Below, piece after piece: positions 6,566 through 10,061 of a stretch of DNA of 13,118 nt. The position numbers were made by a program, and so were the translations under genes. Each line of letters starts with the position of its first letter. Positions within the stretch are counted from its first letter, which is position 1. The stretch comes from Chloroflexota bacterium (GTDB lineage Bacteria > Chloroflexota > Limnocylindria > Limnocylindrales > Limnocylindraceae): contig CANKMK010000004.1 in the NCBI GenBank assembly GCA_947483025.1, positions 1-13,118 of the forward strand, in the 5' to 3' direction. A model generated the notes under the pieces. That model ran no database searches. It was given only the letters and a program-made list of their open reading frames with translations, and was not told the origin of the DNA.

Positions 6566-7312
6566 TTACTTCGAAGAACCGTTCTTCAGGGTTGCGATCT
6601 TCCAGATGAGGAGACCGTAGCCCGGCTTGGCCAGGATGTCGGCAATCGTGTATCCGACCTGCTTCAGCACGAGGCCGTCCTGGGCCGTAAGGCCAAGGTT
6701 GCCTGCGATTGCTGGAAGAAGGTAGGCGATTGGGTAGACGCCCCACGTCGCGATAAGCACGACGCGAAGGATCTTGAAGATCCCCTGGATGTCCTTGCTC
6801 TGCTTCTTGATCGAGGCATCGATGCCGCCGAACAGGTCGCGGAGGATCAGGACGAAGAAGACTGAGCTGATCGCGCCCCAGATGGTGCGCGGTGAAGCCA
6901 AGTCAACCGACGTGATGTTCGTCATCTCGCCGACGTAGCCCGTTGCGATCATCAAGAACGCATAGAGCACGTTTCGCTTGATGAGCGTGCTCTCAAGCTT
7001 CTTGTCGAGCTTGAGTACGAGCACGAGCTCAGCAACGAGGAGTGGCACCGTCAGGAGCCAGTCCACGTATCGATACGCCTCGTTGAACGGAACTGCTCCG
7101 CCCGAGGTGCCGAAGGCAACCCACGAGTCGAAGATTCGGATGTAGTGGTAGAACGCGATCAGCACAACTACGGCTGAGAGCGTAACCGCCATCCGGTTCC
7201 CCTCCTTCAGAGCTCCGCGTGCGGAGACGAAGAAGAAGAAGCTTGCGCCCATCGCCGCGATGGCGAGGGACATAAAGTTGTAGACCAACTGATAGGCATC
7301 TGCTGCGCTCAT
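6566..7312 (-). CDS. Type-1 microbial rhodopsin, xanthorhodopsin/actinorhodopsin-like proton pump
   Basis: This is a 248-residue, seven-helix retinal protein that should pump protons out of the cell in light. Retinal would bind Lys229 in helix G (ADILAKPGYG). Helix C reads RYVDWLLTVPLLVAE and carries Arg81, the proton acceptor Asp84, Thr88 and the donor Glu95. This D-T-E pattern is that of proteorhodopsin-type proton pumps. His56 (FYHYIRIF) matches the histidine paired with the acceptor in proteorhodopsin and xanthorhodopsin, and Asp225 is the second counter-ion. Leu92, at the proteorhodopsin-105 tuning site, predicts green absorption. Helix F has WGVYP (190-194). The ATG at 7312 follows a strong GGGAGGT (7321-7327); a longer in-frame extension would cross the whole intergenic region and is rejected. 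It is divergent from a carotenoid gene cluster. Confidence 0.96.
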   Translation of the reverse strand: MSAADAYQLVYNFMSLAIAAMGASFFFFVSARGALKEGNRMAVTLSAVVVLIAFYHYIRIFDSWVAFGTSGGAVPFNEAYRYVDWLLTVPLLVAELVLVLKLDKKLESTLIKRNVLYAFLMIATGYVGEMTNITSVDLASPRTIWGAISSVFFVLILRDLFGGIDASIKKQSKDIQGIFKILRVVLIATWGVYPIAYLLPAIAGNLGLTAQDGLVLKQVGYTIADILAKPGYGLLIWKIATLKNGSSK

Positions 7313-7495: not shown

Positions 7496-7885
7496 ATGCC
7501 AGCGATCACAGAGCTCACACGCATCGAGCCGGTCCACTTGGCACGCCTGGAGGCGCACGGGATCTTTACCACGGGCCTTTTGCTTGAGCGCACTGAGACC
7601 CCAACCCGGCGCCAGACCCTGGCAGACCAGACCGATGCTTCGACCGCCGACGTTGCTGAGTGGCGTGATGAAGCGCTCCTGCTCAATCTCGCCTTCCTGG
7701 GGCCTGCGGAGCACGAGCTTCTGGCTCAGGCAGGCTTTGGTGGCGTCGAAACCCTCGCTGCAGCCCCGTGGGAGCAGTTCCAGGCTGCGGTGATCTCAAC
7801 CGCACAGACACTCGGCCTCCCGCTCCCTGACCCGCTCTCACTCCGCTCGTGGTGGGAGCAGGGGCAGGTCCTCGCCGACGCGTGA
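7496..7885 (+). CDS. DUF4332-like small protein
   Basis: The 129-residue soluble protein resembles DUF4332, a family built of helix-hairpin-helix-like repeats. Two repeated units can be seen: a first with ELTRIEPVHLARLEAHGIFTTGLLL (about residues 6-30) followed by RRQTLADQTDASTADVAEW (38-56), and a second with LAFLGPAEHELLAQAGFGGVETLAA (65-89). In each, a short helix, a G-containing turn and a following helix match the "L..hGI.T...LL" rhythm. No catalytic residues are evident, and the biochemical role of the family is unknown to me. The ATG follows a strong purine-rich GGGAGGAG. It is the first gene of the plus-strand cluster, and its stop overlaps the next start (GTGA). Confidence 0.7.
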   Translation: MPAITELTRIEPVHLARLEAHGIFTTGLLLERTETPTRRQTLADQTDASTADVAEWRDEALLLNLAFLGPAEHELLAQAGFGGVETLAAAPWEQFQAAVISTAQTLGLPLPDPLSLRSWWEQGQVLADA

Positions 7886-8511
7886 AGCCCCTCCGCCGCC
7901 TCTTGCGGCGGCTCCTCCTCGCCCTCGCCTCAGCAGCCCTGGCGATTGGCGCAACGACAGCCATCTTCCTCACCCCGCCGGTCGTGCACCCCCTCTTGTC
8001 GGTGAGCGACGCCCATATGGTGCTCGGGGTGGAGCCGAAGGTTGCTGAGGCCCTCTCAGACGCCCTAGTAGGGGACCTGCTCACAGACGGCGCCTTCGAC
8101 GCCCCGCTCGGCGACAGACCACTTCTCTCGGCGGGAGAGCGCTCCCACCTTGCCGATGTCGGCAGCCTCCTACGAGCCGTACTGGTTGCTGGCCTCGGCG
8201 GGCTACTCGTGTTGGCCCTCGCCAGAGCCCGCCGTCGCGCCTGGCTTCGCGTGGCGATTCGTGACGGCGCAGCACTCATCGCGGGCGGAGCTCTCTTGGC
8301 CGCCGCCGCCTTCGCGCTGGCCTTTGATGCCACGTTCTCCTTCTTCCACGGCCTCTTCTTTGCCGCTGGCACCTGGACCTTTAATCCCGCCACGGACCGG
8401 TTGGTGCAGCTCTATCCCGAGCCCTTCTGGGTTCTGGCGGCGCTCCTCTTCTGCCTGGTGCTCGCGGTGGGCTCGTTCACTGCCTATCGCATGACCGCGC
8501 GAACAAGGTGA
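7882..8511 (+). CDS. DUF1461/TIGR01906-like integral membrane protein
   Basis: The 209-residue product has four predicted membrane helices (about 10-32, 97-115, 128-150 and 181-203) and a basic N-terminus (KPLRRLLRR), placing the start in the cytoplasm. Three stretches match what I recall of DUF1461: LLSAGERSHLADVGSLL (81-97, the E-x2-H-x-x-DV pattern), FFHGLFFAAGTWTFNP (154-169) and RLVQLYPEPFWVL (173-185). The function of this family is not known. I chose the GTG at 7882 because it overlaps the upstream stop as GTGA and puts the basic residues directly before the first helix; an ATG at 7849 would overlap the previous gene by 37 bases. The stop overlaps the start of the next gene. Confidence 0.75.
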   Translation: MKPLRRLLRRLLLALASAALAIGATTAIFLTPPVVHPLLSVSDAHMVLGVEPKVAEALSDALVGDLLTDGAFDAPLGDRPLLSAGERSHLADVGSLLRAVLVAGLGGLLVLALARARRRAWLRVAIRDGAALIAGGALLAAAAFALAFDATFSFFHGLFFAAGTWTFNPATDRLVQLYPEPFWVLAALLFCLVLAVGSFTAYRMTARTR

Positions 8512-10061
8512 TGGGCGCGCTCTACCTCGCCGTCATCGGGCTTTCGGCGATCGGTGTGCACGGCCTGGTTAAACGCTTCTCGCTACCGGTTTCTCGCCAC
8601 GTGCTGCTTCCGGTCACGGTCGTCACCACTGTGGCCTTCCTGCTCGTTGATGCGGTCGGAATCTGGCGCGGCTGGTTTGCGACACCACTCTCGTCGACGC
8701 TGCTGATGCTTCCTGGCCGCGGTGCACTTGATGCAGGGCTGCCGATTGAGGAGGTTGCACTCCTTGCAGCACTCGCCGCTTTGGTGGTGGTGCTAATGAG
8801 CATTCGCAGGCCTCGCCCGATGAAGGGGGAGGGAGAGCTCTCGTTGCAGCGCATCGGTGCCGCCGCCCTTTGCGGAACGCTCGTCACAGCCGGGGCGCTC
8901 GTCGCAAACATCGGCGGCGAATACACAGCGGCCACCGCAGGGCTCGCCGCAGGAGCACTGCTGCTGACCGCACCACTCCTTGCTCGCAGCCACGCGAGTC
9001 GCTTGAGCGTTGCAATCTTCTTGGGGCTGACGCTCGTCTTCGACAACATCATGTGCGCAGCAGGTCTCTTTCACTATGCCAGCGCACCGCGCTCGGGGGT
9101 GATGCTGGGTTACGCGCCGGTCGAAGATATCCTCTATGCAGCGGCGTTTGTGCTCTTCGCTGTGCAGCTCACAGCATCCGCACGTGCAGCGAAGGGGCGC
9201 TGGTGGCGGTTGCTGCTGGCCTCCCGCCCTGTTTCGTGGATCAACACCGCGCTCCCATTTGCGGGGGGTGCACTCGCAGCTGGAGCGGGGGAGGCCGTTG
9301 GCGCGTGGTTCCTGCCGCTGGTGATCTGGTGGGGCGTTGCGTACAACCTGTATCTCTATGGGGTCAACGATCTCTATGACCTAGCGACAGATCGCAAGAA
9401 TCCGCGCAAGGGTGGCGCTGAGGGTGCTCTTCTGCAGGACGGTGATCTGCCAACGCTCCGGTCGCTTCTTCTCGTCTCATCATGCACAGCGGCGCTCTTC
9501 TTGCTGACGGGTACCAATGCGGTGCCGATCGCCTGTCTCATCGGCATCGTCTTTGCCACCATGTACAGCGCACCGTGGTTCCTCCGCGCTCGCGCGATTC
9601 CGATCTTCGACGCGGTCATCTCTGCCACGCACTTTGTGGTCCCTGCGGTTGCCGGGCTTGCACTGGGCGGTAAGTTTCAGCAGGCCTGGGTTGCGCCGCT
9701 CGCCGCCTTCTTCTTCTGGAACATGGGGAGCCATGTGGTTGGAGCGTTGCAAGATGTCGATGCGGATCGCCGTAGTCGGATTGCTACGGTCGGAACACTT
9801 CTCGGCGTTCGTGGCGGGGGCCTCTTCGCCATCTCGCTTTATGCAGTGGCGGGGCTCTTGCTGCTCGTACAAGGCGAACCGCTCCAGCGCATCGGGGCGC
9901 TCTTGCCGCTTGCGAGCATCCTCTCGCTCCTACCGCTGATCGCAGGCCGCCCAACCCATGAGGCGGCACGCGCCGCATGGCGCCGATTTATGTTGCTGAA
10001 TCTCTTCCTTGGCGCTGGTGCCGCCATGTTGATCATCCGTAGCCTCGTCGGCGCTGCGTAG
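8511..10061 (+). CDS. Fused lycopene cyclase (two CrtYc/d- or CrtYe/f-type domains) and UbiA-type prenyltransferase (lycopene elongase-like)
   Basis: A 516-residue, multi-helix membrane protein with three domains. Domain 1 (about 1-98) carries LPIEE (77-81), the heterodimeric lycopene cyclase motif. Domain 2 (about 115-222) carries FDNI (177-180), HY (188-189) and YAPVED (201-206), the matching second half. Domain 3 (about 235-516) is UbiA-type: GVNDLYDLATDRKNPRK (284-300) is the first Asp-rich motif in the form seen in lycopene elongases, and LQDVDADRRSRIATVGTLLG (413-432) is the second. Separately, such proteins make C50 carotenoids (elongase plus CrtYe/Yf) or beta-carotene (CrtYc/Yd). The ATG at 8511 shares one base with the upstream stop; a GTG at 8508 adds one residue. 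Which carotenoid is made cannot be read from motifs. Confidence 0.88.
   Translation: MGALYLAVIGLSAIGVHGLVKRFSLPVSRHVLLPVTVVTTVAFLLVDAVGIWRGWFATPLSSTLLMLPGRGALDAGLPIEEVALLAALAALVVVLMSIRRPRPMKGEGELSLQRIGAAALCGTLVTAGALVANIGGEYTAATAGLAAGALLLTAPLLARSHASRLSVAIFLGLTLVFDNIMCAAGLFHYASAPRSGVMLGYAPVEDILYAAAFVLFAVQLTASARAAKGRWWRLLLASRPVSWINTALPFAGGALAAGAGEAVGAWFLPLVIWWGVAYNLYLYGVNDLYDLATDRKNPRKGGAEGALLQDGDLPTLRSLLLVSSCTAALFLLTGTNAVPIACLIGIVFATMYSAPWFLRARAIPIFDAVISATHFVVPAVAGLALGGKFQQAWVAPLAAFFFWNMGSHVVGALQDVDADRRSRIATVGTLLGVRGGGLFAISLYAVAGLLLLVQGEPLQRIGALLPLASILSLLPLIAGRPTHEAARAAWRRFMLLNLFLGAGAAMLIIRSLVGAA

Follow-up and report, generated by a model that had tools for sequence, protein, structure and literature searches.

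A CrtYe-CrtYf-CrtEb fusion encoded near a xanthorhodopsin-family gene in small-genome Chloroflexota, a probable single-chain C50 carotenoid synthase

We examined a 13,118-nucleotide stretch of DNA from a Chloroflexota bacterium (the window), in which a single gene encodes both halves of a lycopene cyclase together with a UbiA-type prenyltransferase, close to a divergently oriented gene for a xanthorhodopsin-family rhodopsin. The fusion gene CrtYe-CrtYf-CrtEb (8511..10061, + strand) forms one open frame of 516 residues. Its ATG start at 8511 takes as its A the last base of the stop codon of the upstream Lit-like gene (TGATG overlap), and an alternative GTG start at 8508 would add one residue; residue numbers below are counted from this GTG. 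Domain 1 (D1; 8511..8843, +) is a CrtYe-like cyclase half carrying LPIEE at residues 78-82 (8739-8753), and domain 2 (D2; 8844..9191, +) is a CrtYf-like half carrying FDN at 178-180 (9039-9047) and PVED at 204-207 (9117-9128). Between the halves runs an extra hydrophobic stretch (8853..8909, +; about residues 116-134, from hydropathy with limits set by eye). Domain 3 (D3; 9192..10058, +) is a UbiA prenyltransferase of the lycopene-elongase group with two Asp-rich motifs, NDLYDLATD at 287-295 (NDxxDxxxD, 9366-9392) and QDVDAD at 415-420 (QDxxxD, 9750-9767). These motifs and the uninterrupted frame had been named in a first-pass annotation of this DNA, and all were located within 8511-10061 on the + strand.

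D3 is recovered by Pfam as UbiA at residues 249-498 (E 1.3e-16), and NCBIfam places the fusion above the cut-off for the prenyltransferase model PRK13105 (221 bits, cut-off 217). The same model gives 454 bits at an actinobacterial locus (L016), 438 bits for a CrtYf-CrtEb frame (L049) and 265 bits for a UbiA-glycosyltransferase fusion (G077), both described below. Matches to the cyclase models fall slightly short, with Pfam Lycopene_cyc at residues 139-221 (E 1.7e-5; 25.8 bits, cut-off 27) and the NCBIfam lycopene cyclase domain CarR_dom at 36 bits (cut-off 39.4), and D1 has no Pfam match. Profile comparison separates the two halves: in hhalign the D1 profile scores 96.7% (E 4e-10) against CrtYe and 0.3% against CrtYf, and the D2 profile scores 99.3% (E 1.4e-20) against CrtYf and 1.9% against CrtYe, a test that is not fully independent since the comparison rows were chosen by D1 and D2 profile matches. 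Each half also keeps a PxE(E/D) sequence, which we take to be the cyclase-half motif. By sequence, no solved structure in the PDB matched the fusion at E up to 0.1. The domain searches proposed at the outset thus recovered both cyclase halves and the UbiA domain (D2 and D3 by Pfam and NCBIfam, D1 by profile comparison), and support the assignment of D1 and D2 as C50-carotenoid cyclase halves of CrtYe/CrtYf type and of D3 to the CrtEb lycopene-elongase group (operon names from PMC6669644 and PMC6393565).

A protein search with the fusion listed 63 matches, of which 50 span 93% or more of the query. A second search, from a divergent member, added six full-length proteins. The architecture is thus found in 56 further protein clusters, which are 44-97% identical to the query used. 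Across 57 rows (these 56 and the window protein), 18 positions are invariant: P79, E81 and E82 in D1; D179, P204, E206 and D207 in D2; and N280, N287, D288, D291, D295, N298, R300, K301, Q415, D416 and D420 in D3. The PxE(E/D) residues of both halves are thus kept in 57/57 rows, F178, N180 and P299 each deviate in one row, and position 418 is variable. Ratios of nonsynonymous to synonymous substitution rates (dN/dS) between the window and five relatives are about 0.07-0.38 in every domain, from two estimation methods mixed, and each domain is under purifying selection in these five pairs. The first-pass annotation had named a frameshift joining separate genes as a danger to its reading. Because the fusion recurs in the 56 further clusters and in loci from independent assemblies, such an artefact of assembly or sequencing is ruled out for practical purposes, its chance being close to nil. 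The fusion is a real, conserved and lineage-specific three-domain protein.

We surveyed its distribution in 177 genomes of the class of one carrier, which we take to be Limnocylindria, the class of Aquidulcis. The fusion profile matched 26 of these: 18 carry the fusion, seven have separate genes and one (G019) gave a weak UbiA match. Parts of all three domains lie in one frame in 16 of the 18; D1 is incomplete in G013 and G015, contig ends cut the C-terminus in G006 and G007, and the contig ends just past the D2-D3 junction in G123 and G126, both counted among the 18. Six class matches were flagged as reading through one stop, which in L011, L014 and L154 is the gene's own end. The carriers, which include Candidatus Aquidulcis and Candidatus Limnocylindrus, have genomes of 0.8-1.2 Mb as assembled, and among the surveyed genomes the fusion is confined to small-genome relatives of these two. 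Sampling 400 genomes evenly over the phylum gave 19 matches, five with the full fusion and all of these about 1.1-1.2 Mb. No triple fusion outside the lineage was recognised in these 400 genomes or in the protein searches, each of which scored about 8000 candidates, most without an organism name. The architecture survey that had been suggested therefore yields 56 further clusters and 18 of 177 class genomes. One locus (L002) is labelled Thermoflexus hugenholtzii JAD2; the proteins around its fusion are 84-98% identical to those of the window, and the label looks like a misnomer.

To place the fusion among separate-gene systems, we searched genomes with two UbiA peptides and compared the 80 best of the 199 loci that matched. 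L001-L015 are Chloroflexota, and the 65 loci from other bacteria (L016-L080) are actinobacterial except for an Acidobacteria metagenome-assembled genome (MAG; L018) and Sporosarcina (L019). D2-like and D3-like genes occur in all 65 and a D1-like gene in 55. As the loci were selected via UbiA, D3 is present by design, and the result lies in the D1 and D2 genes next to it. Gene order is D1-D2-D3 in 55/55 loci with a D1-like gene, and no other D1 match was seen. Since the neighbouring genes keep this order, we conclude from the sequence comparison that the fusion arose by colinear joining of a crtYe-crtYf-crtEb operon. The separate genes stand in the same order in six larger-genome members of the class itself (G034, G035, G036, G044, G077 and G082), and a seventh (G086) has the set divided over two contigs; these seven genomes span 2.0-3.7 Mb. 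In a quick tree with long branches, the 17 fused UbiA domains included form a single clade (Shimodaira-Hasegawa-like approximate likelihood ratio test, SH-aLRT, 99), and a single origin of the fusion is consequently the simplest reading.

The same three families, in the order of the fusion domains, make up crtYe-crtYf-crtEb of Corynebacterium glutamicum (decaprenoxanthin), and the same families form crtE2-crtYg-crtYh of Micrococcus luteus (sarcinaxanthin; PMC6393565, PMC6669644). Those are separate actinobacterial proteins, whereas here one chain with an extra hydrophobic stretch occurs in Chloroflexota with a rhodopsin gene nearby. Partial joining has precedents. In Dietzia sp. CQ4 (C.p.450) LbtBC joins the elongase in frame with one of the cyclase halves while LbtA stays separate, so that two of three parts are joined rather than all three; D2 and D3 share a frame among the 65 loci only in Kocuria rosea (L049), and further two-part CrtYf-CrtEb frames are P0058 and, judged by match range, probably G553. 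Single-chain CrtYcd cyclases (Sulfolobus, Algoriphagus and the fungal cyclase-phytoene synthase; PMC2889829) likewise hold both cyclase halves, but are C40 cyclases without an elongase domain. In C50 carotenoid producers the three parts are usually separate or only partly fused, as the first-pass annotation stated. Joining of the CrtYf and CrtEb parts is already known from Dietzia, and what appears to be new is the triple fusion and its rhodopsin linkage; among the titles and abstracts covered by our literature search, with subscription journals and supplements outside its scope, none reports a fusion of all three parts or places a C50 gene close to a rhodopsin in Chloroflexota.

Joining these proteins may have required a change in membrane arrangement. 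Separate CrtYe (n=3) and CrtYf (n=4) proteins each show about three hydrophobic stretches, with peaks merging or splitting in some, and their positive loops suggest an N-out/C-in arrangement as judged by eye. Two such half-cyclases in one chain would therefore need an additional membrane crossing. In the fusion, hydropathy exceeds the threshold at residues 118-130 and is highest at 126, behind a positive loop at 101-117, and we infer from hydropathy and charge that this added helix lets both half-cyclases sit in one chain, while the passage from CrtYf (C-in) to UbiA (N-in) would need none.

The rhodopsin gene lies at 6566..7312 (- strand), and among PDB entries its product most resembles psXR (9wfa) and xanthorhodopsin (XR; 3ddl). 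Between it and the fusion are a gene for a DUF4332 protein (7496..7885, +; from domain search), the first of a DUF4332-Lit-fusion run, and one for a Lit-family membrane protein (7849..8511, +; above the cut-off of Pfam Lit and below that of TIGR01906), which overlaps both the DUF4332 gene and the fusion start. The rhodopsin family PF01036 was found in 19 of the 177 class genomes, namely the 18 with the fusion and one (G077) with separate C50-type genes. Rhodopsin and fusion are divergent on the same contig within about 1.3 kb in 17 of the 18, in three different gene neighbourhoods; in G013 and G015 the rhodopsin is linked to an N-terminal piece of the fusion, and the exception is G005, where the fusion contig begins inside DUF4332 and the rhodopsin lies on another contig. 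DUF4332 and Lit stand between the two genes in 12 genomes by sequence match, a count that leaves aside the gap in G013, G015 and G126. These genomes are related, so the counts are not independent. At L014 and L154, rhodopsin and fusion are directly adjacent with other neighbours and no DUF4332 or Lit between them, and because the two genes stay together there, the rhodopsin-fusion pair is a conserved unit. At one of these loci (L154:1-7149, genome G125), a divergent 515-residue fusion beside the rhodopsin is followed by an NhaA-like sodium/proton antiporter gene (identified by eye), which places a proton pump, a pigment enzyme and an antiporter in a row.

We put at roughly 75% the probability, judged from these sequence comparisons, that the fusion is a single-chain C50 carotenoid synthase whose pigment most likely serves the nearby rhodopsin. 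D3 would add a C5 unit from dimethylallyl diphosphate (DMAPP) to each end of lycopene, and D1 and D2, sharing one joint active site built from PxEE and PxED, would then close the rings to give a cyclic C50 carotenoid resembling C.p.450, decaprenoxanthin or sarcinaxanthin. This pigment would serve the divergently encoded pump as antenna or protection. In E. coli, the characterised CrtYe/Yf/Eb and LbtA/LbtBC enzymes convert lycopene into cyclic C50 carotenoids, and lycopene build-up has been seen with the separate genes (PMC6393565). If our reading is true, one gene would cover the whole step from lycopene to cyclic C50 product; we infer this substrate and product, as well as ring type and any channelling between the active sites. 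That all three parts sit in a single chain, as first proposed, is borne out; the halves match CrtYe and CrtYf in particular, and the domain order is that of the C50 operon. A supply of lycopene is plausible: phytoene synthase was found in 13 of 15 genomes, and a CrtI-family desaturase gene stands beside crtB at L083. In the same 15 genomes, no CrtY-type cyclase scored above cut-off (CruA/CruP and further CarR-type cyclases were not sought). PF05834 matches in 12 of the 15 were below cut-off, and the one inspected (L151) falls on the FAD end of the second CrtI.

Several points weigh against this interpretation. D3 clears the PRK13105 cut-off by only 4 bits and sits on a long branch, where the fused domains form a clade of their own (SH-aLRT 99) apart from the one that holds actinobacterial CrtEb and UbiA-glycosyltransferase proteins, and for both reasons its substrate could have changed. 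Of the 18 fusion genomes, 14 have a second UbiA and two more have fragments of it; at two loci it adjoins a second CrtI-family desaturase (L151:6659-9186; L152:6186-9004, the latter partner recognised by its opening residues). A further carotenoid branch may therefore exist, which complicates the assignment of the elongase step because elongation could be performed by this other enzyme. The second UbiA of L151 scores similarly with PRK13595, PRK13105 and PRK12875, below all three cut-offs, and the pair perhaps represents another elongase branch. The half-cyclases were classed by comparison with CrtYe and CrtYf sequences, to the exclusion of C40-type CrtYc/Yd and CruA-type ones, and we know of no pigment from these uncultured bacteria. 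The long branch, the second UbiA-CrtI pair and the range of the half-cyclase comparison leave room for an alternative close to one raised in the first-pass annotation, in which the cyclase halves act on lycopene itself to give a C40 product (beta- or gamma-carotene) and the UbiA domain is barely active or works on a different substrate; beta-carotene could be the retinal precursor of a rhodopsin host. However, the genes that D1 and D2 match are neighbours of an elongase-type gene (an association rather than exclusivity, the loci having been chosen via UbiA), the key UbiA motif residues are invariant in 57/57 rows, and neither Blh nor RPE65, which could use beta-carotene, was found in the genomes searched for them (177 and 15, respectively). 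The sequence evidence thus weakens the C40 alternative, and we judge it distinctly unlikely.

Gly146 and Tyr197 of the window rhodopsin correspond to XR Gly156 and Tyr207 and are invariant in 19 distinct aligned sequences (XR excluded), as are Asp84, Glu95, His56 and Lys229, which match XR residues whose roles we take to be acceptor, donor, histidine partner and Schiff base. Among further XR positions that we presume to be ligand contacts, 148 and 205 agree with the window protein and 157, 184, 191, 194, 197, 208 and 211 differ. Five of these changes (XR 157 F to A, 184 R to D, 191 N to I, 208 M to L and 211 M to A) count against an antenna role. So would an epsilon-ring product, because Kin4B8, a different rhodopsin, does not bind epsilon-ring carotenoids (PMC12308411). 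The same source gives Gly and Tyr at XR positions 156 and 207 as marks of the carotenoid site. Xanthorhodopsin (3ddl) and Kin4B8 (8i2z) belong to the same family and share the antenna-site Gly and Tyr with the window protein, but bind salinixanthin or 3-hydroxylated C40 xanthophylls.

The pigment might instead protect the membrane from light and oxygen, with the rhodopsin a light-related neighbour that binds no pigment, an alternative that concerns the role of the product only. The differing contact positions would suit it, as would six genomes of the class in which C50-type genes are present but no rhodopsin was matched. It would also fit the rhodopsin loci of another family, that of G181 (Cryobacterium), which we take to be Microbacteriaceae: among 30 loci with short flanks of 1.5 kb, the best matches among 114 rhodopsin genomes of 398 searched, no C50 gene or Blh was found beside rhodopsin (the Blh probe being one Cryobacterium sequence, without a positive control). 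Yet the two residues characteristic of carotenoid-binding rhodopsins, Gly and Tyr, never vary, and the fusion-rhodopsin pair stays together while its other neighbours change. We regard this purely protective role as somewhat unlikely, if a serious contender.

The source of retinal raises a further possibility. Blh (PF15461) had no match in the 177 class genomes or in a separate check of 15 genomes, a notable absence from all of these MAGs even though they are incomplete; the same search in 49 genomes with actinobacterial-type loci gave matches in four, all Cryobacterium. The RPE65 family had no match in 15 genomes, with the control positive in 2 of 14. In Aurantimicrobium minutum, which has a xanthorhodopsin-like pump and crtYe/Yf/Eb, lacks blh and makes retinal, Nakajima et al. 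proposed that retinal is formed by asymmetric cleavage of a cyclic C50 carotenoid (PMC7734400). This organism shares the pump, the C50 genes and the missing blh with the window lineage, but is an actinobacterium with separate crt genes, whereas the genes here are physically linked in another phylum. By analogy, the cyclic C50 product might serve, perhaps additionally, as a retinal precursor through a putative cleaving oxygenase, which would explain the proximity to rhodopsin and again concerns only the product's role. In its favour, all 19 rhodopsin genomes among the 177 have C50-type genes. Against it, the search for a cleaving enzyme, which covered Blh and RPE65 in incomplete MAGs, gave none, the cells could import retinal from the surrounding water, and six class genomes carry C50-type genes but lack a rhodopsin match. 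We hold this precursor role to be very unlikely on present evidence. In one of these Cryobacterium genomes, the genes for rhodopsin, Blh and a cyclase that looks CrtY-like by eye are clustered (L162:7155-10570) and a C50 operon (L027) lies elsewhere, giving two separate cyclase systems. The Cryobacterium Blh loci did not serve as a C40-cyclase reference, as L162-L165 contain no D1-D3 match and the L162 cyclase looks CrtY-like.

Taken to its fullest extent, and rather doubtfully, enzyme and rhodopsin may form a compact light-harvesting module in which lycopene is converted into a ring-closed, hydroxylated C50 antenna, and the same pigment, cleaved asymmetrically by a putative enzyme, may supply retinal. 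In that case it would be, as far as we know, the first xanthorhodopsin with a natural C50 antenna. The locus bears on two questions, namely which carotenoid feeds such rhodopsins with light energy and where the retinal comes from in rhodopsin bacteria that lack blh. Xanthorhodopsin-like and carotenoid genes of freshwater Chloroflexi were reported by Mehrshad et al. (2018; PMC6169038), who suggested that a carotenoid acts as antenna; no words beginning with lycopene or crt occur in the main text of that paper. Serra Moncadas et al. (2026; PMC13212565) described rhodopsin gain in Limnocylindraceae, with carotenoid and lycopene absent from the main text. Our results place a gene fusion on this small freshwater genome branch, where rhodopsin gain is described as the most notable habitat-linked acquisition (PMC13212565), and show that the fusion is linked to a rhodopsin of antenna type, in genomes that gave no known retinal-forming enzyme in the searches above. 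This linkage, the lack of such enzymes and the conservation of the fusion throughout its lineage went beyond the first-pass annotation.

A different fusion was observed in G077, the one of the seven separate-gene genomes examined by domain search: an elongase-type UbiA is joined to a family-2 glycosyltransferase (L144:4477-6555, - strand), as it is in the database proteins P0061, P0062 and P0064. A single chain of this type may yield C50 carotenoids that are glycosylated.

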